A stretch of DNA of 64,000 bases, taken from contig CAJOIC010000004.1 of NCBI GenBank assembly GCA_905234625.1, forward strand, positions 1-64,000, read 5' to 3'. Numbering within the stretch: position 1 is the stretch's first letter; each line of letters begins with the position of its first letter. The notes under the pieces were generated by a model that did not search any database, had not been told where the DNA came from, and saw only the letters and a program-made list of their open reading frames with translations. Made by a program: the position numbers and the translations under genes. This DNA is from an uncultured Oscillospiraceae bacterium. Its GTDB lineage: Bacteria > Bacillota > Clostridia > Oscillospirales > Oscillospiraceae. This document shows, in pieces, positions 18,596 through 37,922 of the stretch.

Positions 18596-18709
18596 ATTAT
18601 AGGCCCGCAAAAATGGGACTGTCAACAAATTTTCCAAGAAACTTGTAAATTTGCGCTTGACAAATCAAGAAACTTGGTTTATTATAACACATACCACAAG
18701 AATCTTGTG
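18596..18709. promoter_or_regulatory. Divergent phage switch region: leftward promoter (18596-18625), rightward promoter (18657-18685) and three operators
   Basis: Rightward TTGACA-N17-TATTAT; leftward TTGACA-N18-TATAAT; CAAGAANCTTG at 18635-18645, 18666-18676, 18697-18707. Confidence 0.85.
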
Positions 18710-18928: not shown

Positions 18929-19162
18929 ATGGGAGGAAAACAAAAAACGGAGATCACCCCGGAGCGGGTGATGGACGCCCTGGCGCAGATCGCCTTCGAG
19001 GAGACGGAGGTGAAGACCAGCGAGCGGATGAAGGCGCTGGAGCTGCTGGGAAAGCCCCTGGGGCTCTGGAAGGACGCCTCGGCGGAGGACGGGCTGGAGG
19101 GAGAGCTGTCCAAGCTCTCGGAGCTTCTGGAGCAGCGCCGGGAGCGCCGGGAGGACCCATGA
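18929..19162 (+). CDS. Phage terminase small subunit (putative)
   Basis: 77-aa helical protein TPERVMDALAQIAFEETEVKTSERMKALELLGKPLGLW directly before the large subunit, ATGA overlap. Confidence 0.75.
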   Translation: MGGKQKTEITPERVMDALAQIAFEETEVKTSERMKALELLGKPLGLWKDASAEDGLEGELSKLSELLEQRRERREDP

Positions 19163-20547
19163 GGGTAGGGCCGAAATTCGACGCGTTCCTGGATCATCGG
19201 GCGGAGGCGGAGTTCCTGGAGGGCGTGACGGCGGCGGGCAAGACCACGGTGGGTACATACAAGTTCATGCTGGAGGTGGCGGAGAGCGACAAGACCCAGC
19301 ACATCCTGGCGGGCCTGGACACCGGCGTCATTGAGAAGAACATCATCAACAAGGAGCACGGCATCCTGGACGAGTGGGGGCCCCTGGTGGAATACCGGGG
19401 CAACGGCGCGGGCGGAGAGCGGCTGCCCCATATCGTGTTCCACACCCGGCGGGGGGATCGGATCATCTACGTCCTTGGGTACGACAACAGCAGGCGCTGG
19501 AAGAAGGCCCTGGGCGGACAGTACGGCTGCCTGTACATCGACGAGATCAATATCGCAGACATCGATTTTGTGCGGGAGGCCGTCATGCGGTGCGACTACC
19601 TCATCGCCACCCTGAACCCGGACGATCCGTCCCTGCCGGTGTACGGCGAGTATGTGAACCACGCCAGGGAGCTGCCGGAGTGGACGGCGGACACGCCCCC
19701 GGCTATCCTGCGGGAGCTGAGCCTGGAGGAGAAGCCCGGCTGGACCCACTGGTTCTTCGGCTTTCGGGACAACATCGCCCTGACCCCGGAGAAGATCGAG
19801 GCCATCCGCCGGAACGTGCCCCCGGGGACGAAGCTCTGGAAGAACAAGATCGAGGGTCTGCGGGGGCGGGCCACGGGACTGGTGTTCCCCAACTTCGACC
19901 GGAGCGTCCATGTGCTGACGGCGGCGGAGGCCCTCCGCTTCCGACGGGACCCGGAGGGAGGAGATCAGGGGGAGCGCTTCCGCTGGTACTCCTGCGGGGT
20001 GGACACGGCCTACTCCCAGCGGTCCCCGGACACTATCGCCATGGCGTTTCTCGGGATCACGGACCGGGGCCGCTGCGTGGTGCTGGACGAGCGGGTGTAC
20101 GACAACGCCGCCCTGCGCACGCCTCTGGCGCCCTCGGACACGGTGAGGAACCTCTCCGACTTCCTGGACCGGAACCGGCGGGAATGGGGGTTCTGCCGCA
20201 GCGCCTTCATCGACGCCGCGGACCAGGCCACCATTACCGAGGCCGCCAAGTACAAGCGGCTCCACGGCTCGCCGTACAGCTTCGTTTCCGCCTGGAAGAG
20301 GGAGCGGATCATCGACCGGGTGAACCACCAGCTGGGCTGGCTGTCCCCGGCGGAGGGAGGACCGTGGTTCTTCGTGACGGAACGCTGTCCTGTGTACATC
20401 CGGGAGCTGGAGACATACAGCTGGCGGGAGGACGAGGACAACGCACCCGAGGACGGGAACGACCATATGATCAACGCCGTGCAGTACGCATGGCTGCCCT
20501 ATGAAAACAAGATCGGGACTGAAAGGAGAGAAACATGGGCTGGCTGA
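19159..20547 (+). CDS. Phage terminase large subunit
   Basis: Walker A-like GVTAAGKTT, CLYIDEINIAD (Walker B), nuclease Asp region GVDTAYSQRSPDTIAMAF; ATG at 19159 overlapping the terS stop. Confidence 0.88.
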   Translation: MRVGPKFDAFLDHRAEAEFLEGVTAAGKTTVGTYKFMLEVAESDKTQHILAGLDTGVIEKNIINKEHGILDEWGPLVEYRGNGAGGERLPHIVFHTRRGDRIIYVLGYDNSRRWKKALGGQYGCLYIDEINIADIDFVREAVMRCDYLIATLNPDDPSLPVYGEYVNHARELPEWTADTPPAILRELSLEEKPGWTHWFFGFRDNIALTPEKIEAIRRNVPPGTKLWKNKIEGLRGRATGLVFPNFDRSVHVLTAAEALRFRRDPEGGDQGERFRWYSCGVDTAYSQRSPDTIAMAFLGITDRGRCVVLDERVYDNAALRTPLAPSDTVRNLSDFLDRNRREWGFCRSAFIDAADQATITEAAKYKRLHGSPYSFVSAWKRERIIDRVNHQLGWLSPAEGGPWFFVTERCPVYIRELETYSWREDEDNAPEDGNDHMINAVQYAWLPYENKIGTERRETWAG

Positions 20548-21950
20548 AAGAGCATATCCGGCAGCGCCTGGGACGGCTGCGTCCCGCCCCCGAGCGATAC
20601 GTCGCCATCCGGGAGCCGATGACGTTCGAGATGAACGTCCTGAGAAACAAGCTGTGGTATCGGGGGGAGCCCTCGGAGCTGGAGCAGTTTTTCCGGCAGA
20701 CCGCGGTATCGGACATCGACCGGGCGCGGTTCTGGGCGGCGGCGCCCCAGGGCAGGGTCCGGAAGATCCATTCCGGCATCGTGGGAACGGTGGTGGACCG
20801 GTACCGGGACATCGCGACCACGGACTTTGACGGCCTCGCCTTCGGAGAGGACGGCGGCGAGCTCCGGGAGCGCTGGGAGGCCATGGCGGAAGACTGCGGC
20901 TTCGAAGAGCTGCTGGGACAGGCCGTGGCCGGCGCCCTGGCCGCGGGAGACGGCGCCTTCAAGATCTACCTGCGTCCCGGCGAGAGCACGCCGGGCGTGG
21001 GGTTCGCTGAGGCGGACGCCGTGGAGCTCGTCATGGACGGGCGGCGGCTGGACGAGGTGCGGTTTTCCACCTGGTTCCCCCAGGGGGAGCGGGAGCTCCG
21101 GCTGGAGGAGCGCTACGGCCGGGGGTATGTGCGCTACCGGCTGACGGACGCCGCCGGACGGGAGCTGCCCCTGACCGCCCTGGATCAGACCCGGGAGCTG
21201 CGGGACGTGACGTATCCCGGGGACTTCATTCTGGCGGTGCCCCTGGTGATCTTCGACTCCGCCAAGTGGCCCGGACGGGGCAAGGCTCTGTTCGACGGCA
21301 AGAGCGACTGTCTGGACGCCCTGGACGAGGTCATATCCCAGTGGCTGGACGCGGTGCGCATGGGGCGGGTCAAGCGCTATATCCCGGAGGATATGGTCCC
21401 CCGGGATCCGGACACCGGGCGGGTGCTGGAGCCGAACCTGTTCGACAACGCCTATATCGCCGTGGGCTCCTCCGGCGCGGAGGGAGCGGCGGAGAAGATC
21501 GAGGTATCCCAGCCGACCATCGACGTTGCGGCCTATCAGGAGAGCTACGCGGCGTATCTCGACCTGGTACTCCAGGGGGTCATGAGCCCCGCCACCCTGG
21601 GCATCGACCTGAAGAAGACCGACAACGCCGAGGCCCAGCGGGAGAAGGAGCACATCACCATGCACGTGCGCGGGAAGATCGTGGACGCCCTGAGCCGGAC
21701 CCTGCCCCAGCTGGCGGCGGCGCTCCTCATGACGGAGGATCTGCTGGCGGGCCGTCCGGCGGGGGAGTACAGGATCTCCGCCCGGTTCGGCGAGTATGCC
21801 AGTCCTGACTTCGGCAGCACGGTGGAGACCGTGGCCCGGGCCAGGGACGCCGGGATCATGAGCGTGGAGCAGGCCATGGAGGAACTCTACGGCGACGCCT
21901 GGACCCCGGAGGAAAAGGCCGCCGAGGCCCTGCGCATCCGCGGGGAATGA
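20535..21950 (+). CDS. Phage portal protein
   Basis: 471 aa between terL and scaffold/capsid; sequence pattern and synteny of SPP1/HK97-type portals. Confidence 0.85.
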   Translation: MGWLKEHIRQRLGRLRPAPERYVAIREPMTFEMNVLRNKLWYRGEPSELEQFFRQTAVSDIDRARFWAAAPQGRVRKIHSGIVGTVVDRYRDIATTDFDGLAFGEDGGELRERWEAMAEDCGFEELLGQAVAGALAAGDGAFKIYLRPGESTPGVGFAEADAVELVMDGRRLDEVRFSTWFPQGERELRLEERYGRGYVRYRLTDAAGRELPLTALDQTRELRDVTYPGDFILAVPLVIFDSAKWPGRGKALFDGKSDCLDALDEVISQWLDAVRMGRVKRYIPEDMVPRDPDTGRVLEPNLFDNAYIAVGSSGAEGAAEKIEVSQPTIDVAAYQESYAAYLDLVLQGVMSPATLGIDLKKTDNAEAQREKEHITMHVRGKIVDALSRTLPQLAAALLMTEDLLAGRPAGEYRISARFGEYASPDFGSTVETVARARDAGIMSVEQAMEELYGDAWTPEEKAAEALRIRGE

Positions 21951-22072: not shown

Positions 22073-22642
22073 ATGAAAAAGGAAGCGCTGATGGAGCTGG
22101 GACTCACGGAGGAGCTGGCGGAGAAGACCGCCGCCGCCCTGGGGGAGGAGCTGAAGGGCTTCGTGCCCAAGAGCCGCTTCGACGAGGTGCTGGAGGAGAG
22201 GAACGGCCTGCGGGCCGCGGGCTCCGAGGCCGAAAAGCGTCTGGCGGAGCTGGAGGCCGCCGCGGGAGAGAGGGAGACCCTCCTGGGCCGGGTGGAGGAG
22301 CTTCAGTCGGAGCTTGCCCGAAAGGACGAGCTCCACGCGGCTGAAAAGCGCTCAGCGGCCCTGGAGAGCGCCATCCGTCTGGCCCTGACGGACGCCCATG
22401 ACGCGGCCCTCGCCGCCTCTCTCGTGGACCGGGACGGGCTGGACCTGGACGAGCAAGGCAATGTGACGGGGCTCAGCGAGCAGCTGGACGCCCTGCGGGC
22501 GGCAAAGCCCTTCCTGTTCCGCAGGGCCGCTCCCGGCTTTGCCGTGGGCATGCCTCCCGCCCGGAGCGGCGCTATGGGCTCCGGAGCGGGACCCACCATG
22601 CGGGACACCATCGCGCGGCACTTCGAGACCCAGAGGGGGTGA
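22073..22642 (+). CDS. Phage scaffolding-like protein
   Basis: Coiled-coil KSRFDEVLEERNGLRAAGSEAEKRLAELEAA... directly before capsid. Confidence 0.75.
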   Translation: MKKEALMELGLTEELAEKTAAALGEELKGFVPKSRFDEVLEERNGLRAAGSEAEKRLAELEAAAGERETLLGRVEELQSELARKDELHAAEKRSAALESAIRLALTDAHDAALAASLVDRDGLDLDEQGNVTGLSEQLDALRAAKPFLFRRAAPGFAVGMPPARSGAMGSGAGPTMRDTIARHFETQRG

Positions 22643-22717: not shown

Positions 22718-23677
22718 ATGGCAGTAACTTTGGCAGACGCGAAACTGGCGGTGCAGGACGATCTTCAGGCGGGCGTCATCGACGAGTTCCGCAAGAGCAA
22801 CTGGATCCTGGATCACATCACCTTTGACGACTGCGTGGCCCCCACCGGCGGCGGCGCCACCTCCACCTATACCTATCTGCGCCTTCTGAGCCAGCCTACG
22901 GCGGCCTTCCGCGCGGTGAACGGCGAGTACACCTCCCAGGAGGTCACCCGTCAGAAGATCTCCACCGACGTGAAGATCTTCGGCGGCAGCTACAAGATCG
23001 ACCGCGTCATCGCCGACATGGGCGGCGCGGTGGACGAGGTGCAGCTCCAGCAGGCGCAGAAGATCAAGGCCGCCCAGGCCCTGTTCAACGACACCTTCAT
23101 CAACGGCGACACCGCCGCCGACGCCAACGCCTTCGACGGCCTGGAGAAGGCTGTGGCCGGCACCTCCACGGAGTATAACGGCTCCGGCAGCGCCATCGAC
23201 CTGTCCACCTCCGCGGCGGTGGACGCGAACTACATGGCCTTCCTGGACATGCTGGACGAGTTCCTCATGGGCCTGGACGGTCAGCCCTCCTGCCTCATGG
23301 GCAACACCCGCATGATCGCGAAGCTCCGGGCCTGTGCCCGCCGCGCCTCCATGTATCAGACGGGCCTCGACTCCTTCGGCCGGCAGGTGGAGACCTACGC
23401 GGGCATCCCCCTGGTGGACATGAAGACCAAGTCCGGCTCCAACCAGGACGTCATCGCCACCGACGCCGACGCCGGCACCACCAGCCTCTACGTGGTGCGT
23501 CTGGGTCTGGACGGCGTCCACGCCGTGTCCTTCGCGGGCTCCGCGCCCGTCCGCTGCTGGCTGCCCGACTTCTCCACCGCCGGCGCGGTGAAGACCGGCG
23601 AGGTGGAGATGAACGCCGCCCTGGTCCTGAAGACCACCCAGGCCGCGGGCGTCTTCCGCAACATCAAGGTGCGCTGA
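22718..23677 (+). CDS. Phage major capsid protein
   Basis: 319 aa, position after scaffold; GYKIDR-like N-arm, GIPLVDMKT, C-terminal capsid-like segment. Confidence 0.85.
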   Translation: MAVTLADAKLAVQDDLQAGVIDEFRKSNWILDHITFDDCVAPTGGGATSTYTYLRLLSQPTAAFRAVNGEYTSQEVTRQKISTDVKIFGGSYKIDRVIADMGGAVDEVQLQQAQKIKAAQALFNDTFINGDTAADANAFDGLEKAVAGTSTEYNGSGSAIDLSTSAAVDANYMAFLDMLDEFLMGLDGQPSCLMGNTRMIAKLRACARRASMYQTGLDSFGRQVETYAGIPLVDMKTKSGSNQDVIATDADAGTTSLYVVRLGLDGVHAVSFAGSAPVRCWLPDFSTAGAVKTGEVEMNAALVLKTTQAAGVFRNIKVR

Positions 23678-23680
23678 GCC

Positions 23681-24073
23681 ATGGCGGGCGAGGCATACGC
23701 CGGGACGGAGGACTACGCCGCTCTGTTCCCGGAGGAGGAAGCGCCCTCCGAGGCGGCCCTCGCCGCCGCCGCGCGGCACATCGACGCCGCTACTTACGGA
23801 CGCATCCGGGCCCTGGGAGGTCCGGCGGGCCTTACGGCGCTGCAGCGGGAGCTGGTGCGGGAGGCGGTCTGCCGTCAGGCGAGATTCGAGCGGGAGAACG
23901 CGGCCCTCTTCGCCGCTTCCGTGGCGTCCTACGCCATCAACGGCGTGTCCGTGAAGCTGGGCTCCGCCGTGGGCGTGTCCGTCCGGGGAGGCGTGTCCGT
24001 GTCCGAGGAGGTGGCGAGCCTTCTGGACATGACGGGGCTCACGGACCGGACCCTGCGGGGGGCGCCGGTATGA
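23681..24073 (+). CDS. Head-tail connector protein
   Basis: Small ORF after capsid, gp6-like helical profile. Confidence 0.65.
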   Translation: MAGEAYAGTEDYAALFPEEEAPSEAALAAAARHIDAATYGRIRALGGPAGLTALQRELVREAVCRQARFERENAALFAASVASYAINGVSVKLGSAVGVSVRGGVSVSEEVASLLDMTGLTDRTLRGAPV

Positions 24074-24408
24074 GATGGCCCGCGCTGGTGCCGCCTGCCG
24101 TATGCACGACGCCCATCCGGCTCACGGTCTACGGCGAGGGCCTGACGGAGGACGGCGCGCCGGTGGAGGCGGCCTCCTTCGAGGGCCTGTGCAACTGGCA
24201 GGACGGCGGGAAAACGGAGCTGACCTCGGAGCAGAAGTATGTCCGCATCAGCGGTCGGGCGTATTTCACCGGCGATATCCTGCCGGAGGTGCCCGTGATC
24301 GCGGCGGGATACGGGGTGATCTTCGGTGTGCGGCGGGCCATCGTCTCCGGTCGGAAGGCCCGGGACCCGGACGGCACGGTGAACTACACGGAGGTGCGGT
24401 TCGCATGA
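24070..24408 (+). CDS. Putative head closure / minor capsid protein
   Basis: Overlapping ORF in head-tail module. Confidence 0.6.
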   Translation: MRWPALVPPAVCTTPIRLTVYGEGLTEDGAPVEAASFEGLCNWQDGGKTELTSEQKYVRISGRAYFTGDILPEVPVIAAGYGVIFGVRRAIVSGRKARDPDGTVNYTEVRFA

Positions 24409-24575
24409 CGACAAAGGGGCCTGTTACCATCGACAGGGAGGCGCTGGAGCGCCTTGCCCGGGAGCCGGCGGAGGCGAGCGCCGACCCCCGGCGGCGCTTC
24501 CACCCGGAGGAACGGAGCGTCCCCGCCCGGATGCGGTTCGACGAGACGGAGATAACGGAGGAGGCGGCAGAATGA
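24405..24575 (+). CDS. Small phage protein of unknown function
   Basis: MTTKGPVTIDREALERLAREPAEASADPRRRFHPEERSVPARMRFDETEITEEAAE; ATGA overlaps on both sides. Confidence 0.55.
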   Translation: MTTKGPVTIDREALERLAREPAEASADPRRRFHPEERSVPARMRFDETEITEEAAE

Positions 24576-24967
24576 CCCTCGGTGAGATCCGCGACTGGCT
24601 GAAGACCATGGATGTCGCGGAGAACTACTACATCGGACGCCTGGACAACAAAAAGGAGCGGTCCCTGGGCGTGTACGGCCGGAGCCGGAAGGGCGAGCCC
24701 GCCGTCGCCCTGGGTGGCATGGGCCTGACGAGCTACGGCGTGCGCTCGGTGAGCCTGCTGCTCCACTGGAACCGGAACGCCCGGGAGACCGAGGCCGCGG
24801 CCATGGCGCTCTGGGAGGAGCTGCTGTGCGCGGCCCACGTGGACCTTCCCGGCGGCGGGCACATCCAGTGCGTGCGTATGACCGTGCCGGAGCCTGCGGC
24901 TGTGGGCACGGATAAGGACGGCGTGTATGAGTACGTCGTCGAGGCGGATATTTATTACCGGCGCTGA
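24572..24967 (+). CDS. Putative minor capsid / tail completion protein
   Basis: Synteny, 131 aa before tail tube. Confidence 0.65.
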   Translation: MTLGEIRDWLKTMDVAENYYIGRLDNKKERSLGVYGRSRKGEPAVALGGMGLTSYGVRSVSLLLHWNRNARETEAAAMALWEELLCAAHVDLPGGGHIQCVRMTVPEPAAVGTDKDGVYEYVVEADIYYRR

Positions 24968-25000
24968 CGCCGGAAACTATGAAACTTGGAGGTATTGCAA

Positions 25001-25441
25001 ATGTCTACTACCAGCGGAGTGTACCCCTGCTATGAGAACCAGTTCCGGATCGACATCGCCGGTACCGGAACGGCGGACATGAAGGCCATCGCGGACTGCG
25101 AGAGCTTTTCCGTGACCTTCGACAACGGCATCGAGGAGTGGCGTCCCTTCGAGCAGGAGGGCTGGGTCCGCCGCCTGCTGACCGCGAAGGGCGTCACCAT
25201 CAGCGTCTCCGGCAAGCGGAGCATCGGCGACGACGGCAACGACGCCGTGGCCGCCCTGGCCTGGGTGAGCGGCCGGGACGCGGAGCGGGATTTCGAGTGG
25301 ACCTTCCCTGACGGCACCGTGGTCAGCTTCCCCGCCGCCGTCATCAACGTCACGAACATCGGCTCCGCCGACTCCACCAGCGTGGCTCCTCTGGAGTTCG
25401 AGGTGCAGTCCAACGGCAAGCCCACCGTGACCGCGGCCTGA
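25001..25441 (+). CDS. Phage major tail (tube) protein
   Basis: MSTTSGVYPCYENQFRIDIAG... beta-rich, before tail chaperones and tape measure; ATG 25001 with GGAGG SD. Confidence 0.75.
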   Translation: MSTTSGVYPCYENQFRIDIAGTGTADMKAIADCESFSVTFDNGIEEWRPFEQEGWVRRLLTAKGVTISVSGKRSIGDDGNDAVAALAWVSGRDAERDFEWTFPDGTVVSFPAAVINVTNIGSADSTSVAPLEFEVQSNGKPTVTAA

Positions 25442-25456
25442 GCGGGGTGACGGGGC

Positions 25457-25753
25457 ATGGTCTATGATCTGACGGAAAAGCTCCGGTTCGACGAGGACCC
25501 GGTGCTTGTCATCAAAAACACCAGGCTGACGGTGCGCTCCGACGCGGAGGTCGTGCTGAAGCTCATGGACGTGCTGCGTCAGCAGGGCGAGGCTGCGGGG
25601 GCGGGGGAGGCCATGGAGCTCCTCCTGTCCCCCGAGGACCGGGAGAAGCTCCGCAGCCTCGGCCTGAAGCTCGACGACTATATCGCCGTGGTGAGAGCCG
25701 CGGTGCAGCTGGCCCTCGGCGCGGACCCGGAGGACGAGCCGTCGGGGGAATGA
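25457..25753 (+). CDS. Putative tail assembly chaperone (G-like)
   Basis: Position between tail tube and tape measure. Confidence 0.65.
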   Translation: MVYDLTEKLRFDEDPVLVIKNTRLTVRSDAEVVLKLMDVLRQQGEAAGAGEAMELLLSPEDREKLRSLGLKLDDYIAVVRAAVQLALGADPEDEPSGE

Positions 25754-26091
25754 CCGACCCGTACTACGACCTGAGCGAGGACTGGGAGCTGGTTGCGGCG
25801 AGCTTCCAGTCCATGTACGGGATCCGGCTGGCACGGCAGCTGCGGGATATGAAGTGGCGGGAGTTCGCGGCGCTCCTGGCGGGGCTCGGCGGGGATACGC
25901 CCCTGGGCAGGGTGGCCGCCATACGGGCGGAAAACGACCCGCGCAGGCTCGAGAACTTCACGCCGGAGATGCGTTCCGTTCGCGCCCGCTGGCGCACCCG
26001 CAGAGCCAGACAGAAGCCGCAGTCGGATGTGGACGCCTTCCTCCATGAGATGAAGCGGGCGTTCATGTCCCTGGATCAAAGAGAGGGGTGA
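25750..26091 (+). CDS. Putative tail assembly chaperone (T/Gp15-like)
   Basis: Position; ATGA overlap in -1 register to the previous ORF. Confidence 0.6.
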   Translation: MTDPYYDLSEDWELVAASFQSMYGIRLARQLRDMKWREFAALLAGLGGDTPLGRVAAIRAENDPRRLENFTPEMRSVRARWRTRRARQKPQSDVDAFLHEMKRAFMSLDQREG

Positions 26092-28381: not shown

Positions 28382-28735
28382 ATGGCGATCATCATTCGGG
28401 GAAACGGCGTGACGCTGCCGTCTCCCGTGGCGGTCACGGCGTCGGACGAGATCATCTGGTCCGCCAACACCGGACGCTCCTCCGCCGGACGGATGCTGGG
28501 GGACGCGGTGGCGGAGAAAAAAACCTTCACCGTGGAGTGGGGCGTCCTGACCCGGGGGGAGATGGAGCTCATCCGCAGCAGCCTCCGGAGCGGCTTCCAC
28601 CCCTTCACCATCGTGGAGGACGGCGTGTCCACCACCGTCACGTCCTACCGAGGGGCGCTGACGGGGACGGTGCTGGGCTGCTTCGGCGGCGTGACGTATT
28701 ACAAGGATGTATCCGTGACGGTCATCCAGCAGTGA
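28382..28735 (+). CDS. Phage tail protein (unknown)
   Basis: 117 aa between tape measure and baseplate genes. Confidence 0.6.
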   Translation: MAIIIRGNGVTLPSPVAVTASDEIIWSANTGRSSAGRMLGDAVAEKKTFTVEWGVLTRGEMELIRSSLRSGFHPFTIVEDGVSTTVTSYRGALTGTVLGCFGGVTYYKDVSVTVIQQ

Positions 28736-28751
28736 GAGGAGGCGGGCGGCT

Positions 28752-31229
28752 ATGATAAGCGGAAGCTGGCCCACAGGGGCCAAGAGCGCGGCGCTGACGG
28801 TAAACGGCGCCGCCGTGTCGGACGAGCTCGTCTCCATTGCCTATACGGACGATCTGACCGGCGGCAGCGCCATGACCATCGGCGCGGCGGCAGCGGCCCG
28901 GGTGCGGTTCGTTGTGGACGGTCCCAGCGTCGATTATGAAGGCGCGGCGGTCTCGATCACTATCGGCGGCATACCCCTGGGGACCTTCTATGTCACGGAC
29001 CACAGCGAGAGAGACGGCCGTCTGACGGTGGACGCCGTGGACGCCATGGGAACGGCGGCCATGCGGGAGGCGTATGTCCCCGCGGCCTCCTCCGGCACGG
29101 CCCTGGGCGTTGCCGGGGAGATCTGCGCTGCCCTGGGGCTGACCATGGGCGATACGGGCGGTATCACGGATGCGGCGGTCAGCGGTCTTTCGGAGGGGCA
29201 TACCTATCGGGAGATGCTGGGTCATATGGCGGCGGTGCTGGGGCGGAACGCCCACATCGACCGCCATGGCCGACTGGTCTTCCGGTGGTACGAGGCCCCC
29301 GACTTCGGCAACGCCCGGGCGGAGGATACCGGCGGCGGCAACATCGACCTGCGGGGCGTGCTGGCCCGGGAGCAGAGCGGCGGCGTGCAGGTCACCTACG
29401 GTGTGGAGGCCTCCGAGATCGGGGAGGGAGCGATCCTTCTGACGGTGAAGGGGACCTGCCTCGTCCCGGCGGACGAGGTCTACGCCGGAGAACTGACGAA
29501 AAAGACCGCGGACGCGGCGCTGACAGGCATCGCCGTCGCCGTTACGACGGTGACGGCGGACACCGAGACCGACGGCGCCGGGAACGTCACCGCCACGGAG
29601 GAACGGCGAACGTCGGTCCTTGCGGCGGGAGGCACGCCGGCCGTTTCCCTGCGGTGCGACTATATGTCGCAGGCGGTGCTGGACGGTATTTTCGCGCGGA
29701 TCGGGGGCTTTTCGTATCGCCCCATGACCCTGAGCTTCTACGGGGACTGCCGTGTGGAGACGGGGGACGTCATCCGGGTGACGGACCGGGACGGTCAGGT
29801 GTACGACATCCCCGTCAGCGCCGTGACCCACAGCTGGGACGGGGGAGTCAAAACCACGGTGACCGCCGGTGCGCCGGTTTCGTTCTCCGGCGGCTCCGTC
29901 ACCGCGGCCCTCAGCAGGGTATCGTCGGAGCTGGCGGCGCTGGGGAACCGGGAGGCCTCCAATGTGGAGGCCCTCAGCCGCAGGATCGGGAACGAGACGG
30001 CCAGCCGGGAGGCGGCGATACAGGCCCTCTCCGGCGCCCTGGCCGGCGCCGGCGGCCTCTATGAGACGACGGAGACCCCCGCCGGCGGCGGGACGGTGTA
30101 TTACCTCCACGACAAGGCGGACCTGGCGTCCTCCGGGGTGGTCCTGAAGCTCACCGCCCAGGCCCTGGGCATCAGCACGGACGGGGGACAGACCTATCCG
30201 GCGGGCTGGGATTTCGTCAGCGGCACCACGATCACGAACATCCTGCAGACCGTGGGCGTGGCGGCGGACTGGATCACCTCGGGCCGGGTGCAGTCCCGGA
30301 ACGGGCGGGTCTACTTCGACCTGGACGACAACGTCATCGTCTGCAGCCAGCTCCAGGCTTCCCGGCCCTGGGACAGCACCACCGGAACGGACCCCGGGGA
30401 CGTGGTGGTGGATATCTCCAAGAGGAACATCTCCGGCAGTACCTGGGCCTCCTACGCCAATATCTACAAGAGCGGAAACGAGGGAAATGGACTGTGCATC
30501 ATGCCGCCTGTTCCTGGCGGCCAGTACTCGCCCGATGACCGTGTGCTTGTGTTTACCTGGGGGGATAACCCCATCGAGCTGCGGCACCATTCCGGGATGA
30601 CCGGGAACGCGGATTACACCTCTGTGCTGTGCCTGGACGAAAACAGGGCGGAGCTGTTCGCAAAGAGCAGCACCTCCAACAACCTCAGCGGCTTCTGGAT
30701 GGACGACACGGGCATCCATGCCTCCGGGGATCTCAGTGCGGGGGCGGTCACCGCCGTCTCTCTGGCCGTCTCCGGCGTGAAGCAGAGAGTGGTGGACACG
30801 GAGGACTACGGCGTGCGCTCCTTCTACTGCTATGAGACCCCCACCCCCATGTTCGGCGACGTGGGGGAGGGAGTCCTGGGAGAGGACGGGCGCTGCGCCG
30901 TGTTCCCGGACCCGGTGTTTGCCCGGAGCGTGGCTCCGGGACAGTACCAGGTCTTCCTCCAGAGCTACGGACCGGGGGAGTGCTTCGTCACCGAGCGGAG
31001 CGGGGACCGCTTCCTGGTGGAGGGAACGCCGGGACTCCGCTTCGGCTGGGAGCTGAAGGCAAGGCAGGCGGGCTTTTCCCAGCGCCGCCTGGACAAGCAT
31101 ACGCCGGAGGCGTCCGTGGTCACCGCGGACTACGGCGGACTGGCGCTGGCGCATATCGCGTCCCTCCGAAGGGACCCCGTGGCGGCGGCGCATCTCAATC
31201 ATATGAAGGAAAGGGAGGGTCCAATATGA
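28752..31229 (+). CDS. Phage tail hub / minor structural protein
   Basis: 825 aa following tape measure; N-terminal hub-like beta domains, C-terminal fiber-like region. Confidence 0.7.
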   Translation: MISGSWPTGAKSAALTVNGAAVSDELVSIAYTDDLTGGSAMTIGAAAAARVRFVVDGPSVDYEGAAVSITIGGIPLGTFYVTDHSERDGRLTVDAVDAMGTAAMREAYVPAASSGTALGVAGEICAALGLTMGDTGGITDAAVSGLSEGHTYREMLGHMAAVLGRNAHIDRHGRLVFRWYEAPDFGNARAEDTGGGNIDLRGVLAREQSGGVQVTYGVEASEIGEGAILLTVKGTCLVPADEVYAGELTKKTADAALTGIAVAVTTVTADTETDGAGNVTATEERRTSVLAAGGTPAVSLRCDYMSQAVLDGIFARIGGFSYRPMTLSFYGDCRVETGDVIRVTDRDGQVYDIPVSAVTHSWDGGVKTTVTAGAPVSFSGGSVTAALSRVSSELAALGNREASNVEALSRRIGNETASREAAIQALSGALAGAGGLYETTETPAGGGTVYYLHDKADLASSGVVLKLTAQALGISTDGGQTYPAGWDFVSGTTITNILQTVGVAADWITSGRVQSRNGRVYFDLDDNVIVCSQLQASRPWDSTTGTDPGDVVVDISKRNISGSTWASYANIYKSGNEGNGLCIMPPVPGGQYSPDDRVLVFTWGDNPIELRHHSGMTGNADYTSVLCLDENRAELFAKSSTSNNLSGFWMDDTGIHASGDLSAGAVTAVSLAVSGVKQRVVDTEDYGVRSFYCYETPTPMFGDVGEGVLGEDGRCAVFPDPVFARSVAPGQYQVFLQSYGPGECFVTERSGDRFLVEGTPGLRFGWELKARQAGFSQRRLDKHTPEASVVTADYGGLALAHIASLRRDPVAAAHLNHMKEREGPI

Positions 31230-31438
31230 AGACCATTACCAGCGTGACCGTATTCAATGACGCCGTGGGACTGCGCCTGTCCGCGAGCTACGCGGAGGTG
31301 GAGGAGGACACCGGCAGGATCACGGCGGACAACAAGCGGTTCGACCGGGTCGTCACCGACCCGGAGGCCAGAGCCGCCGCGGAAGACCTCTTCCGGCACG
31401 CTTTTGAGCTCCTGGACGGTGCGGAACGGGAGGCGTGA
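31226..31438 (+). CDS. Small phage protein
   Basis: MKTITSVTVFNDAVGLRLSASYAEVEEDTGRI..., ATGA-type overlap with previous gene. Confidence 0.6.
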   Translation: MKTITSVTVFNDAVGLRLSASYAEVEEDTGRITADNKRFDRVVTDPEARAAAEDLFRHAFELLDGAEREA

Positions 31439-31441
31439 CCC

Positions 31442-34400
31442 ATGGCGGAGAAAAACCTGGCGTCGATCACCTTTCCGGGGCTGGGAGACGCATATCGCAT
31501 CCCGGATTACAGCGATGATATCGGTGCGCTGACAGACAGGCAGAACGCGTCGGAGACGGCCGCCGGCCGACTGCGGGACCGGGTGGAGGCTTTGGAGGAG
31601 GCCACATCCGACATCGCCATCGAGCCGGACGATCTGGGTCTGGAGCAGGACCCGGATACGGGCCTCGTCTATCCCACGTATCGGGGCGTCCGCAGCGAGA
31701 ACGGCATCCCCCTGGCCACCGGCGGGGGAGGAGGCGGTGGCAGCGGGAACAGCGCCGTGCTGACCGTGACGAATACGGCCGGATGGCTCGCCAAGACGGT
31801 GAGCACCGGCGCGAGCTGTCCCGTATCGCTGACCTGGTCCTCCATCGAGAACGGACTGGAGACCGGTAACGGCACCCTGTCCGTGACCATAGACGGCGTC
31901 GTGAAGAAGACCCAGGACGTGGCGCAGGGCCCAGTAACGGTGGATGTGGGCGGATATCTCTCCGCGGGCGCCCAAAGGGTCAAGGTGAAGATCTCCGACG
32001 TATACGACAACGCCAAGACCATCACCTACACCGTTACTGTGGCAGAGCTGACGCTGACAAGCAGCTTTGACACCTCGGGCGTTTTCGCCGCGGACAGCGT
32101 CATCGAATACACCTACACCCCGACGGGCGCGGTGGAGAAGACCGTTCATTTTGTGGTGGACGGTACGCAGGTCGGGACCGATGTGGTGACGACCTCCGGC
32201 CGTCAGCAGACATACACCTTGTCGGCAATGGCCCACGGCGCACACAGCCTCCTGGTGTACTTCACGGCGACGGTGGACGGCGAGACGGTATCCTCGAACG
32301 AGCTCTATTACGACCTGATCGTGGTGAACAGCTCGTCCGACACGCCCATCATTGCCAGCACCTTCCGGCGCACGACGGCGACACAGTTTGAGACGCTGCA
32401 GATCCCTTACACCGTCTATACGCCGAACAGCCTCACGTCGGACGTTATCCTGTACGCCAACAATGGGCAGGTCGCGGCGCTGACGGTGGACCGCACCGAG
32501 CATACATGGAGCTACCGCGCAGACGACACAGGGTCGCTGACGCTGACGATCTCGACGGGCAGCGTGGTGCATACGGCCACGCTGACGGTCTCCGAGTCGG
32601 ATATCGACGTGGACGCGGAGACGGACGCTCTGGCGCTCTATCTGACGAGCTATGGGCGCTCCAACAACGAGGCCGATCCTTCCATCTGGCGGGACACCGC
32701 AAACAATATCTCCGCCTCGTTGACGGGCTTCAACTTCGTTTCGGACGGCTGGCTTCTGGACAGCGACGGCATTACCGTACTGCGCGTGGCCGGCGACGCT
32801 CGCGTCACGATCCCGTACAAGCCGTTTGCATCGGACCTCCGTTCGACGGGCAAGACCGTCGAGATCGAGTTCGCCACGAGGAACATCCTCAACTACGACG
32901 CAACGCTGGTGTCCTGCATGAGCGGAGGACGCGGCTTCCAACTGACAGCGCAGAAAGCTCTGCTGGCCTCGGAGCAGTCGGAGATCAGCACACAGTACAA
33001 AGAGGATGAGCACGTCCGCATATCCTTCGTAGCCGAAAAGCGCACGGAGAATCGTCTGCTGTACATATACATCAACGGCATCATGTCCGGCGTGGTGCAG
33101 TACCCGGACGACGACGACTTCTCGCAGGTGACGCCGGTCAATATCTCCATCGGCTCCGGCTACTGCACGACGGACATCTACTGCATCCGTGTATATGACA
33201 ATGACCTGACCCATTTCCAGGTCCTTGACAACTGGATCGCGGACACTCAGGACATCGGTACGATGCTGGCCCGGTATGAGCACAATAACGTCTTCGACGA
33301 GTACGGGCAGATCGTTATTGAGAAACTGCCGTCCGACCTTCCGTACCTCGTAATCTCCTGCGCGGAGCTGCCGCAGTACAAGGGCGACAAGAAGACCATC
33401 AGCGGCTACTATGTAGACCCGAACGACGCTTCGAAGTCGTTCTCCTTCACAGGAGCGCAGGCGGATGTACAGGGTACATCCTCGCAGTATTATCCGAGGA
33501 AGAACTACAAGATCAAGTTCAGCGGCGGCTTTACCATGACCGCCACAGGGACGACCTCGGCAAAGTTTGCCATGAACGCAACCGCCATCCCGACGAAGAC
33601 CTTCACCTTCAAGGCGGACGTGGCCTCCTCCGAGGGCGCGAACAACGTGGAGCTGGTGCGACTGTACAACAGCGCCTGTCCCTACAAGACCCCGCCGCAG
33701 GAAGAAGACGCTCGTGTCCGGCAGGGAATCGACGGCTTCCCCATCGTCATTTTCTGGGACAACGGAAGCACCACGGCCTTTATCGGAAAGTACAACTTCA
33801 ACAATGACAAGGGGACCGAGGAGGTCTTCGGCTTCACGGAGGGGGACGAGTCCTGGGAGATCAAGAACAACACCGGTTCGCGTGTCCTCTGGCAGTCTGC
33901 CGACTACTCCGGCACGGACTGGCTGAACGACTTCGAGGCGCGATATCCTGACACCGACCCGGCCTATACGGACAGCACGGCGCTGGCAGCGCTGGCGGCA
34001 TGGCTTGTTACTACGGACCAGAGCGCAGCCACCGGAAACGCTCTGCCGTCGTCGTATACCGACGTGGACGGCACGGTGCACACCGTGGACAACGCCGCGT
34101 ACAGGCTTGCGAAGTTCAAGACCGAGATATCTGACCACATGGAGCTGCAGAGCGCCCTGTTCTACTATCTGTTCACGGAGCTGTTCCTCATGGTGGACAG
34201 CCGGGCGAAGAACGCATTTCCGTCCTTCCTGGGCGGGGACAAGTGGTGCTGGCTGCCCTATGACTTCGATACCGCCATCGGCATCAACAACGAGGGCGCA
34301 CTGGTGTTCGACTACTCCCTGGAGGACACGGACACCACGAGCGGCGGCGCGGACGTATTCAACGGTCAGCAGAGCGTCATGTGGATCAACCTACGGCAGG

Positions 34401-36700
34401 CGTTCGCCCCGGAGATCAAGGCCATGTACCGGTCCCTCCGCTCCACCGGAGCGCTGTCCTACGATCTGGTGGAGACGGCGTTCGAGGAGCACCAGGCCAA
34501 GTGGCCGGAGGCGATCTTCAACGAGGACTCTTGGTTCAAGTACATCGACCCGCTGGTCAACGACGGCACGGACTACCTCGACATGGCGCAGGGCTCCAAG
34601 GCCGAACAGCGTAAATGGTGGCTGTATAACCGCTTCCGGTACATCGACTCGAAGTACAACGCCGGAGACGCTCTGACGGACGTAATCACGCTCCGTGCCT
34701 ACGCCAGAGGCGATATCACGGTCACGCCGTATGCGGACATCTACCCGACGATCAAATACGGCTCTTACCTTGTATCCGAGCGCGGACACAGGAACGTAGC
34801 AACGCTGCTGCCGATGCCTGCCGGTCTGACAACGCTGAACGACACGGAGGTCTACATCTACTCCGCGTCCCAGCTTGCCGGCATCGGGGATATCAGCGCC
34901 CTCAAAGTCGGTCTGGTGGATCTGAGCAACGCCACGAAGCTGCAGAGCCTCAAATGCGGCGATTCCAGCGCAAGCTATACCAACAGCAATATGTACTCGC
35001 TGACGCTGGGAAACAACACGCTGCTCAAGACGATTGACGCGAGAAACTGCACCGGCCTGGGCGATACCACGCAGGAGGGCCACTCCCAGACGGCGGTGGA
35101 TATCTCCGGATGCACCAATATCGAGCATGTGTACTTCGACGGCACGAACATCCGCTCCCTGACATTGCCGGTCGGCGGTATCCTGAAGACGCTGCACCTG
35201 CCGTCCACGGTCACAAACCTCACCGTCCGGAATCAGGCGGCGATCACGGACTTCACGATGCCGTCCTACGCGAACATCACGACGCTGCGCGTAGAGAACA
35301 GCTCCAGCGCGATCCCGGTGCTGAACATCCTTGCGGCGATGCCTGCCAACTCCCGCGTCCGCATCATCGGCTTTACGATGACCGTCAGCACGACCGACGA
35401 TGTGGAGGACTTCTTCGATCGTCTCGACACCATGCGCGGCCTGGACGAGAGCGGCAACAACCTCGACAACCCCGTCGTGTCCGGCACGATCACCGGTCTT
35501 GGCACGATCACCGGCGCGTGGCTCGCGCAGATGAATGCCCGCTATCCGAACGTCACGATCGAGTATCAGCATATCACCAGCAATCTGTACTACTACAACT
35601 ACGACGGGACGGAGCTGCTTTACACCGAATCCATCACAGACGGCGGCGACGGCGCATATGCCGGACAGCCTGCTCGTGCAGCGACTGCGGCGAACACTTA
35701 CACCTTCGCCGGATGGAGCCGGTACACCAATCAGAGTGCGGCGGATGCCACGGCGACACAGAACGTCACGGCTGACCGGAACGTTTACGCGGCCTATACC
35801 GTTCAGGGACAGGTTTACACCGTGCGATTCTACAACGACTCCACGCTGCTCCAGACCGTCTACAGCGTCCCGTATGGAAGCACGGCAACCTACACGGGAG
35901 AAACGCCGGTATCCCCGGACGGCAGCGCTGAGGATTATCCGTTTTTGGGCTGGTCCCCGTCCAACACGAATATTCAAGGCAACACGAAATGTTATGCCGT
36001 GTTCGGAACGCCGCTTGAGATCAAGGAGATCACGGATAGCTGGGATACGATCATTGCCAACGTCGGGAACGGTACGGCTGTGACGAAGTACAAGCCCGGA
36101 AACTACAAGCCGCTTGAGCTTGGCACCGAAGGCACCGTCAATATGCAGATCATCGGAAAGCAGGTTGACAACCTTGCTGACGACAGCGGCACGGCTGCCT
36201 TGACGTGGCTGAGTATCGAAACGCTCAAGACGGCTCACCGTATGAATCCGGCCCGTGCCGGGGAATCCGGCAATTATACGGAAGGCACCGGTACAGTCGG
36301 CGGCTGGGAGAAGTCCGAAATGCGGACCTATCTCAACGACACGATCAAGCCGCTCATTCCGGCCAACGTGCAGGCTGCTATCAAAGCTGTGCATAAGACC
36401 CACCCGGCCTACGACTCTGCCGGTTCTCAGTTTACACAGACGACGGATGATGAAGTGTGGCTGCCGTCCTACAATGAAATGGTTGCGTCCAGCAGCTCCA
36501 CAAATCAGCCGCGCTACAAGACCGTGTTTCCCGACGCTGAGAGCCGTAAGAAGACGGCCATAGGTGCGACAAGCGCCTCTCCGTGGTGGCTGCGGTCCGC
36601 TTCCAACGGCATTAGCTTCTATGTTGTGAACAGCAGCGGCGGCGCCAGCAGCTACTTTCCCAACGAATCCCGCGGGGTGGCGCTTGGCTTCTGTACGTGA
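31442..36700 (+). CDS. Giant modular tail fiber: coiled N-terminus, Ig/LamG-like, CotH kinase-like, LRR, InlB B-repeat-like, C-terminal C-lectin/DUF6273-like domain
   Basis: CotH-like YPRKNYKIKF...DHMELQSALFYYLFTELFLMVDSRAKNAF...WCWLPYDFDTAIGINN; LRR NATKLQSLKC...; YTFAGWSRY / YPFLGWSPS; C-term WWLRSASNGISFYVVNSSGG...RGVALGFCT. Confidence 0.85.
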   Translation: MAEKNLASITFPGLGDAYRIPDYSDDIGALTDRQNASETAAGRLRDRVEALEEATSDIAIEPDDLGLEQDPDTGLVYPTYRGVRSENGIPLATGGGGGGGSGNSAVLTVTNTAGWLAKTVSTGASCPVSLTWSSIENGLETGNGTLSVTIDGVVKKTQDVAQGPVTVDVGGYLSAGAQRVKVKISDVYDNAKTITYTVTVAELTLTSSFDTSGVFAADSVIEYTYTPTGAVEKTVHFVVDGTQVGTDVVTTSGRQQTYTLSAMAHGAHSLLVYFTATVDGETVSSNELYYDLIVVNSSSDTPIIASTFRRTTATQFETLQIPYTVYTPNSLTSDVILYANNGQVAALTVDRTEHTWSYRADDTGSLTLTISTGSVVHTATLTVSESDIDVDAETDALALYLTSYGRSNNEADPSIWRDTANNISASLTGFNFVSDGWLLDSDGITVLRVAGDARVTIPYKPFASDLRSTGKTVEIEFATRNILNYDATLVSCMSGGRGFQLTAQKALLASEQSEISTQYKEDEHVRISFVAEKRTENRLLYIYINGIMSGVVQYPDDDDFSQVTPVNISIGSGYCTTDIYCIRVYDNDLTHFQVLDNWIADTQDIGTMLARYEHNNVFDEYGQIVIEKLPSDLPYLVISCAELPQYKGDKKTISGYYVDPNDASKSFSFTGAQADVQGTSSQYYPRKNYKIKFSGGFTMTATGTTSAKFAMNATAIPTKTFTFKADVASSEGANNVELVRLYNSACPYKTPPQEEDARVRQGIDGFPIVIFWDNGSTTAFIGKYNFNNDKGTEEVFGFTEGDESWEIKNNTGSRVLWQSADYSGTDWLNDFEARYPDTDPAYTDSTALAALAAWLVTTDQSAATGNALPSSYTDVDGTVHTVDNAAYRLAKFKTEISDHMELQSALFYYLFTELFLMVDSRAKNAFPSFLGGDKWCWLPYDFDTAIGINNEGALVFDYSLEDTDTTSGGADVFNGQQSVMWINLRQAFAPEIKAMYRSLRSTGALSYDLVETAFEEHQAKWPEAIFNEDSWFKYIDPLVNDGTDYLDMAQGSKAEQRKWWLYNRFRYIDSKYNAGDALTDVITLRAYARGDITVTPYADIYPTIKYGSYLVSERGHRNVATLLPMPAGLTTLNDTEVYIYSASQLAGIGDISALKVGLVDLSNATKLQSLKCGDSSASYTNSNMYSLTLGNNTLLKTIDARNCTGLGDTTQEGHSQTAVDISGCTNIEHVYFDGTNIRSLTLPVGGILKTLHLPSTVTNLTVRNQAAITDFTMPSYANITTLRVENSSSAIPVLNILAAMPANSRVRIIGFTMTVSTTDDVEDFFDRLDTMRGLDESGNNLDNPVVSGTITGLGTITGAWLAQMNARYPNVTIEYQHITSNLYYYNYDGTELLYTESITDGGDGAYAGQPARAATAANTYTFAGWSRYTNQSAADATATQNVTADRNVYAAYTVQGQVYTVRFYNDSTLLQTVYSVPYGSTATYTGETPVSPDGSAEDYPFLGWSPSNTNIQGNTKCYAVFGTPLEIKEITDSWDTIIANVGNGTAVTKYKPGNYKPLELGTEGTVNMQIIGKQVDNLADDSGTAALTWLSIETLKTAHRMNPARAGESGNYTEGTGTVGGWEKSEMRTYLNDTIKPLIPANVQAAIKAVHKTHPAYDSAGSQFTQTTDDEVWLPSYNEMVASSSSTNQPRYKTVFPDAESRKKTAIGATSASPWWLRSASNGISFYVVNSSGGASSYFPNESRGVALGFCT

Positions 36701-36724
36701 GTTCCCTATGGAAAGGAGAGGACC

Positions 36725-36979
36725 ATGACAGATCCCGTAGTCGCCGCGCTCATCACCGGGGGCGTATCCCTCGTCGGCACGGTCATCACCGTGCTGGCCA
36801 CCCATCACCGGACCGCCACGGACATGAAGGTATCCCAGGCGGTCATGGACACGAAGATCGACGAGCTGACCCGGGAGGTGCGGTTGCACAACGATTTTGC
36901 CCAGCGCATCCCGGTGCTGCAGGAGCAGATCAAGGTCGCCAACCACCGGATCGACGACCTGGAACACAAACCGGACTGA
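36725..36979 (+). CDS. XhlA-like membrane/coiled-coil protein
   Basis: N-terminal TM, C-terminal coiled coil, next to holin. Confidence 0.6.
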   Translation: MTDPVVAALITGGVSLVGTVITVLATHHRTATDMKVSQAVMDTKIDELTREVRLHNDFAQRIPVLQEQIKVANHRIDDLEHKPD

Positions 36980-36996
36980 CTAGGAGGCACATACAC

Positions 36997-37206
36997 ATGA
37001 ATAAAACGGCAAAGTGGCTCAAGGCCGCGCTTGTCCGCGCGGTGAAGACCGTGGCGCAGACGGCTGTCGCCACCATCGGCACGTCCGCGCTTATGAGCGA
37101 CGTGAACTGGGCGGCGGTACTGTCCGCGTCCATCCTGGCGGGGGCGCTGTCCCTGCTGACCAGCACGGCGGGACTGCCGGAGGTGACGGACGATGCTGAT
37201 CCCTAA
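36997..37206 (+). CDS. Putative phage holin
   Basis: 69 aa with hydrophobic segments, upstream of endolysin, AGGAGG SD. Confidence 0.7.
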   Translation: MNKTAKWLKAALVRAVKTVAQTAVATIGTSALMSDVNWAAVLSASILAGALSLLTSTAGLPEVTDDADP

Positions 37207-37922
37207 ATACGCCAACTGCGGCACCCTGGGGGACTGGGCCGAAGAACAACGGCCGGTTCATCCCCTACACGGGGACCGGCCAGCCGGGAGATCTCGTCCT
37301 GTTCGACTTCTCCGGGAACCACAAGACCCGGCAGCATGTCGGAATCCTGAAAAGCGTCTCCGGGAGCGTCCTCACCACCGTCGAGGGGAACACCTCCGTC
37401 ACGTCCAACGACAACGGCGGCGCGGTGATGCTCCGAACGCGGTATGGTTCCCAGGTGGTAGGGTACATCCGGCCCAAGTGGACGGACGCCCAGACCGCGG
37501 CGAAGCTCATCGCCATCGCGGAGGCGGAGATCGGCACCCGGGAGAGCCCGGCGAATTCCAACAGCGTGAAGTACAACACCTGGTTCTACGGCAGGGCCGT
37601 CTCGGGAGACTGGGCGGCCTGGTGCGCGGCCTTCGTGTGCTGGTGCTTCGCGGTGCTGGACGGACAGATCGACACGGGCATCGACTACAAAGCGGAGGTG
37701 AAATACATCATGGTACAGGCAAAGGAGCTCTCCAAGGGCTCTTGCGGCAGCGCGGTGAAGAAGCTGCAGATCCTCTTGAACGGCCTCGGCCACAGCTGCG
37801 GGACCGTGGACGGGGACTTCGGCGCCAAGACCCTGGCGGCGGTGAAGGCCTTCCAGAAGGCGCAGGGGCTTTCCCAGGACGGCGTCGTAGGTGCGAACAC
37901 CTGGGGCAAGCTCCTGAGCTGA
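37193..37922 (+). pseudogene. Rearranged/frameshifted CHAP endolysin with peptidoglycan-binding C-terminus
   Basis: Frame starting at 37193 gives MLIPKYANCGTLGDWAE; another frame gives KNNGRFIPYTGTGQPGDLVLFDF..RQHVGIL..VEGNTS, then KLIAIAEAEIGTRESPANSNSVKYNTWFYG..WCAAFVCWCF and a PGB-type repeat. CHAP His precedes Cys. Confidence 0.75.

Follow-up and report, generated by a model that had tools for sequence, protein, structure and literature searches.

The immunity regions of lambdoid phages (lambda CI, P22 C2) combine divergent repressor and lytic promoters with three operators, which in lambda are spaced more tightly than 31 bp. PBSX of Bacillus subtilis and the R-pyocins (PrtR/PrtN) are DNA-damage-induced, defective, phage-derived particle clusters with a phage-type repressor, and both act via an activator (Xpf, PrtN). 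In the switch of Staphylococcal phage 13 / TP901-1, a Firmicute CI acts at three operator sites within a divergent promoter region (PMC8516035). GTAs (RcGTA, CcGTA, BhGTA and Faecalibacterium FpGTA) consist of a structural and packaging operon that carries neither integrase nor replication genes. Their small terminases can be truncated: RcGTA gp1 is described as devoid of an N-terminal DNA-binding domain (PMC6854486), a description from which we took our criterion for judging small terminases (TerS), and the N-terminal HTH is likewise missing from FpGTA I (PMC12946183). DNA damage is the inducer of BhGTA (PMC9662315). The CcGTA regulator RogA acts through activators (GafYZ) and is without key cleavage residues (PMC9632790). 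For gut Oscillospiraceae, GTA-like packaging has been reported with one strong locus named, from Faecalibacterium (PMC12946183).

The locus described here lies in a 64-kb stretch of DNA from a gut bacterium of the Oscillospiraceae, which was analysed at its full length (the window) and belongs to an 82%-complete draft assembly of 2.18 Mb in 118 contigs. It joins a repressor gene and a divergent, three-operator control region to a cluster of phage particle genes (Table 1). No integrase or replication gene was found in the gene content of this approximately 20-kb cluster (17.8–37.9 kb), a feature shared with GTAs. Unlike the known GTAs, the cluster has a siphophage-type tail with a tape measure and is patchy in its genus.

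Table 1. Position and annotation of the control region, the repressor gene with its neighbour and the particle genes in the window.
Feature	Position	Strand	Remarks
Zinc-ribbon, proline-rich protein, 324 aa	16803..17777	-	Zn_Ribbon_1; 37 bp behind repressor gene
Repressor, HTH_3 + Peptidase_S24, 252 aa	17815..18573	-	Domain matches; predicted cleavage A131-G132, catalytic S163 and K198
Leftward repressor promoter, TTGACA-N18-TATAAT	18596..18625	-	12/12 consensus match; inferred start ~18589
O1 operator, CAAGAAACTTG	18635..18645		Centre ~-51 from repressor start, -52 from rightward start
Rightward promoter, TTGACA-N17-TATTAT	18657..18685	+	11/12 consensus match; form common to most orthologues; inferred start ~18692
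O2 operator, CAAGAAACTTG	18666..18676		Within spacer of rightward promoter; centre -82 from repressor start, -21 from rightward start
O3 operator, CAAGAATCTTG	18697..18707		Extended CACAAGAATCTTGTG at 18695-18709; centre -113 from repressor start, ~+10 from rightward start
Small Cys-rich ORF, 59 aa	18737..18916	+	First gene of rightward transcript; absent in G023, homologue in G017
Short small terminase (TerS), 77 aa	18929..19162	+	Terminase_2 match limited to the C-terminal part; without the HTH half
Large terminase (TerL)	19159..20547	+	
Portal protein	20535..21950	+	
Head scaffolding protein	22073..22642	+	
Major capsid protein, gp7 / epsilon15 type	22718..23677	+	
Head-tail adaptor, connector, tail tube, small tail genes	23681..26091	+	
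Tape measure protein, 756 aa	26096..28366	+	
Tail region	28382..36700	+	Short ORF 28382-28735; tail protein 28752-31229; fibre-like 31442-36700
Fibre-like protein, 1752 aa	31442-36700	+	Assigned by size and position
Holin region	36697..37206	+	Phage_r1t_holin
Endolysin with peptidoglycan-binding domain	37193..37922	+	Last element gene before host genes

Within the window, the motif CAAGAANCTTG is confined to O1, O2 and O3, three copies in two steps of 31 bp. By chance 0.05 copies would be expected, and three or more copies appeared in none of 100 shuffles. The entire draft genome contains five copies (one for the reversed-pattern control), of which the two outside the switch are single sites with no second operator nearby. 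The window shuffles, together with the recurrence of the 31-bp step in orthologues (see below), allow us to reject chance repeats as the source of the three operators. A genome-wide regulon of this motif can also be rejected, since the draft genome holds only five copies, two of them isolated, and since the operator sites of nine relatives are mostly confined to the cluster at the repressor's own promoter. A search of 1.6 kb returned the leftward and the rightward promoter as the only promoter-like sites. A preliminary description of this DNA had placed O2 in the spacer of the rightward promoter and O1 beyond the leftward promoter and had given the 31-bp steps; each of these points was reproduced at the same coordinates.

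Since the operators are centred at -51, -82 and -113 of the repressor start, none of the three overlaps the repressor promoter, and we found no operator there that could mediate negative autoregulation. It follows from this layout that the rightward promoter can be shut while the repressor's own promoter is left free. Judged by these positions, nothing in the layout corresponds to an operator through which repressor synthesis would be limited. A cro-type second repressor is also absent: the first rightward ORF, which codes for the Cys-rich protein, has no repressor match and is followed by TerS. The term lambda-like in the preliminary description thus holds for the divergent promoters and repeated operators, but not for the missing cro or for the repressor promoter free of operators. 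The 31-bp step, operators of odd length (11 bp) and a rightward promoter that drives terminase and structural genes further separate this switch from the lambdoid type. It differs from phage 13 / TP901-1 (CI and MOR; OR, OL, OD) by its single regular three-operator ladder and by the lack of a MOR gene.

The repressor resembles the lambdoid proteins in domain structure, and among solved structures P22 C2 is the nearest to its DNA-binding domain. Residues A131-G132, S163 and K198 are invariant in 69 of 69 aligned orthologues, and autocleavage is therefore under strong constraint. Because the cleavage site and the catalytic residues are preserved, RecA-dependent induction is to be expected. These data support the earlier assignment as a cleavable CI/LexA-type repressor. 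They do not support the earlier wording "SOS-type promoter", as induction is expected via RecA-stimulated cleavage of the operon's own repressor and not via LexA. The LexA DNA-binding domain (PF01726) is not present in this protein, where HTH_3 takes its place. Neither PF01726 nor canonical LexA was found in four genomes of the same genus (G000, G016, G026 and G030; one genome incomplete), but nine further members of the family that were tested do have canonical LexA. The zinc-ribbon gene behind the repressor gene is probably co-transcribed with it. Its product gives a weak PHROG match to superinfection exclusion, and a divergent homologue is encoded at the same place in the sister species (G023).

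Of 301 genomes sampled from the family, 85 carry an orthologue of the repressor, in nearly every case a single one. Many of these orthologues are preceded by CAAG-N3-CTTG palindromes, the middle one of which lies within the spacer of a rightward TTGACA-N17 promoter. In an unbiased scan of 60 control regions, the repeat distance to either side of O2 was most often 31 bp (14/60 each). Across 79 loci from named genomes, 70 of the 71 intervals between successive exact CAAG-N3-CTTG sites measure 30–31 or 61–63 bp, which corresponds to one or two 31-bp steps (±1). In CAAG-type repressors the recognition helix conforms to SA(I/V)(G/S)NYE, after which comes S-x-P-(K/R), and repressors with other HTHs are accompanied by other palindromes at the same positions. 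Interval conservation and this matching of HTH and operator argue that the three-turn ladder is a family-wide design in which operator sequence covaries with the DNA-binding domain of the repressor. With the 31-bp step kept in dozens of orthologues, the earlier proposal of three dedicated operators that share one face of the helix stands, and we have high confidence that the switch is real and conserved. Cooperative binding by the repressor, which the preliminary description had put forward too firmly, would be compatible with this spacing, from which we infer it. A literature search for 31-bp operator spacing or for Clostridial S24 switches returned nothing useful. Some loci carry additional sites: five (L247, L251, L256, L272 and L295) have a further operator approximately 31 bp past O3, and three (L254, L264 and L290) have one approximately 62 bp before O1, close to the repressor start.

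The two halves of the repressor have different relatives. The first 68 residues share 56–70% identity with repressors of the chromosomal type and 83% with that of an ordinary phage (L234), but only about 16–20% with the phage repressors that match its C-terminal domain best. For this C-terminal cleavage domain, the best matches (63–67%) are prophage repressors. By these comparisons the protein is a mosaic of a chromosomal-type DNA-binding domain and a prophage-type cleavage domain, and DNA-binding domain and operators apparently move as one unit. A recent offshoot of the chromosomal lineage is not supported, since a tree that involves long branches sets the repressors of the window and G023 outside the chromosomal clade of 83 rows. 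Viral contigs contributed three distant matches only. In two further genomes of the window genus (G026 and G030; L094 and L095), we observed an orphan repressor whose palindrome is a different one; it is divergent from an ArpU-like protein and has no adjoining phage genes, that is, a repressor-activator pair without its phage.

In 59 of the 79 loci (L220–L297; for example L246, L273 and L285) the switch faces genes for tRNA-Tyr and tRNA-Thr on the opposite strand, followed by a Zn-type ORF, c4, a sigma70-region-4 protein (c5) and usually YitT. G023 is the only one of the 79 in which a terminase faces the switch. A switch promoter can be made out in 55 of 58 chromosomal loci, whereas a forward promoter between tRNA-Thr and the Zn ORF was seen in 3 of 58, no more commonly than by chance (7% in shuffled sequence). 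No promoter of its own is visible for the downstream operon. This distribution suggests that transcription from the chromosomal switch promoter passes antisense through both tRNAs and enters the sigma-like operon. Going by gene order, the switch is in most relatives a chromosomal locus.

In the window, the rightward promoter feeds the terminase and structural genes directly, as had been proposed, and the same TerS junction recurs in G023 (repressor 78%, TerL 80%). This sister species has two exact operators and one degenerate operator (the middle one) spaced by 31 and 30 bp, and in it about 20 bp separate O3 from the start of TerS. Because the junction is found in this independently assembled genome, an assembly artefact is unlikely. 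Neither the window nor G023 contains an activator gene between repressor and terminase, which distinguishes the cluster from PBSX and the R-pyocins. In ordinary phages with the same geometry (L092, L096 and L234) early genes run from the rightward promoter, and in full prophages of this TerL family early genes take up approximately 11 kb ahead of TerS; the direct wiring of late genes is therefore an unusual feature. The repressor of the window also differs from RogA of CcGTA in that it has the cleavage residues and is predicted to sit directly on the structural promoter.

TerS is 77 aa long in the window and in G023, and 91 aa or less in G017. It matches only positions ~90–134 of the 141-position Pfam profile Terminase_2 (92–132 for the TerS of the window). 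The TerS proteins of phage relatives mostly have 118–216 aa, with an N-terminal extension, and a single short one (89 aa) starts at a contig end. The loss of the N-terminal HTH is a second feature shared with RcGTA gp1 and FpGTA I. In G017, a third related particle cluster (L183, contig C170) combines a short TerS with no orthologous repressor that we could find, and three TACATCCA repeats upstream of its Zn ORF suggest another control. Farther downstream in the window, the fibre-like protein ends in WWLRSASNGISFYVVNSSG..., which recalls variable C-type-lectin-like tips; its last 166 residues gave no NCBIfam match. The reading frame of the endolysin gene is interrupted near 37235. Either the draft sequence contains an error at this position or lysis is doubtful in the window strain, where particle release may fail.

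Three of the 35 genomes from the genus, and four of the 401 sampled from the family, encode the TerL of this cluster. An element conserved throughout the genus or family can therefore be rejected, and this patchy distribution would suit a decaying prophage remnant, in which a deletion removed the integrase and early genes, fused the immunity region to the late operon and left a functionless locus. The broken endolysin frame and the early genes that ordinary relatives carry at the junction point the same way. However, the same junction is found in a second, independently assembled species, and the short TerS is kept in three. Moreover, 12 genes compared with G023 contain no internal stops and have dN/dS ratios of 0.18–0.52 (dS 0.34–1.05), against approximately 1 expected for unselected genes; the host gene RarA gave a dS of 0.63 and a dN/dS of 0.085 in this comparison, which uses a simple method for dS, one host gene as reference and two species. 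These ratios indicate that the cluster is under purifying selection at host-like divergence, and they fit maintenance since the species split. As the left neighbours of the cluster differ between the two species and TerL occurs in so few congeners, independent acquisition of a related element by each species is also possible. On balance we regard a functionless remnant as unlikely, although not far-fetched.

An active temperate phage or satellite, with its late half and repressor in the window and its early and integration genes elsewhere in the genome, could hide in a fragmented and incomplete draft, and the affinity of the cleavage domain to prophage repressors would suit it. We consider this improbable, since host-type genes flank the cluster on both sides, all on one contig (RarA; an M20 peptidase present in 30 of 35 congeners), the same compact order is found in G023, and no exact direct repeat of ≥13 bp, as expected of att sites, connects the regions on either side. 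An empty site could not be defined because the host gene order of congeners is too different. Finally, the occurrence of chromosomal orthologues in dozens of Oscillospiraceae and the failure to find canonical LexA in four genomes of the genus could mean that the repressor is a host SOS-type regulator with the phage operon as one of several targets. Such a regulator is very improbable given that operators are found essentially only at the repressor's own promoter (three clustered and two isolated in the genome) and that the nine relatives mostly have this cluster alone.

These data are best explained by a phage-derived particle operon that is repressed directly and would be induced by DNA damage, a reading that we consider probable. 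According to this model, a CI/LexA-type repressor that joins a P22-C2-like HTH to an S24 autocleavage domain would bind three palindromic operators at intervals of 31 bp, or three helical turns. Repressor on O2, between the -35 and -10 elements, and on O3, just past the start, would block the rightward promoter, and the repressor's own promoter would stay open because no operator overlaps it. Single-stranded DNA and RecA would trigger cleavage at A131-G132 with loss of dimers. The strong rightward promoter, once freed, would directly drive the genes for terminase, capsid, tail and lysis, and neither early genes nor an activator would come in between. The cluster itself would be a phage-derived particle locus without integrase or replication, maintained in at least two species. 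Since TerS is without its DNA-recognition half, particles, if formed, would most likely package DNA, including that of the host, without sequence choice, as GTAs do. More tentatively, and with less than even confidence, we propose that the locus may be a functional Oscillospiraceae GTA, in which a RecA-cleavable repressor sits directly on the particle genes via a three-operator ladder, with no activator step.

The conserved ladder, together with DNA-binding domains that appear to be swapped along with their operators, provides a natural data set on the evolution of switches. The cluster is a concrete GTA candidate in the Oscillospiraceae with DNA damage as predicted inducer and with a short control region. 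If the model is true, this family would contain a phage-derived particle operon that is controlled by its repressor directly, and not through an activator.
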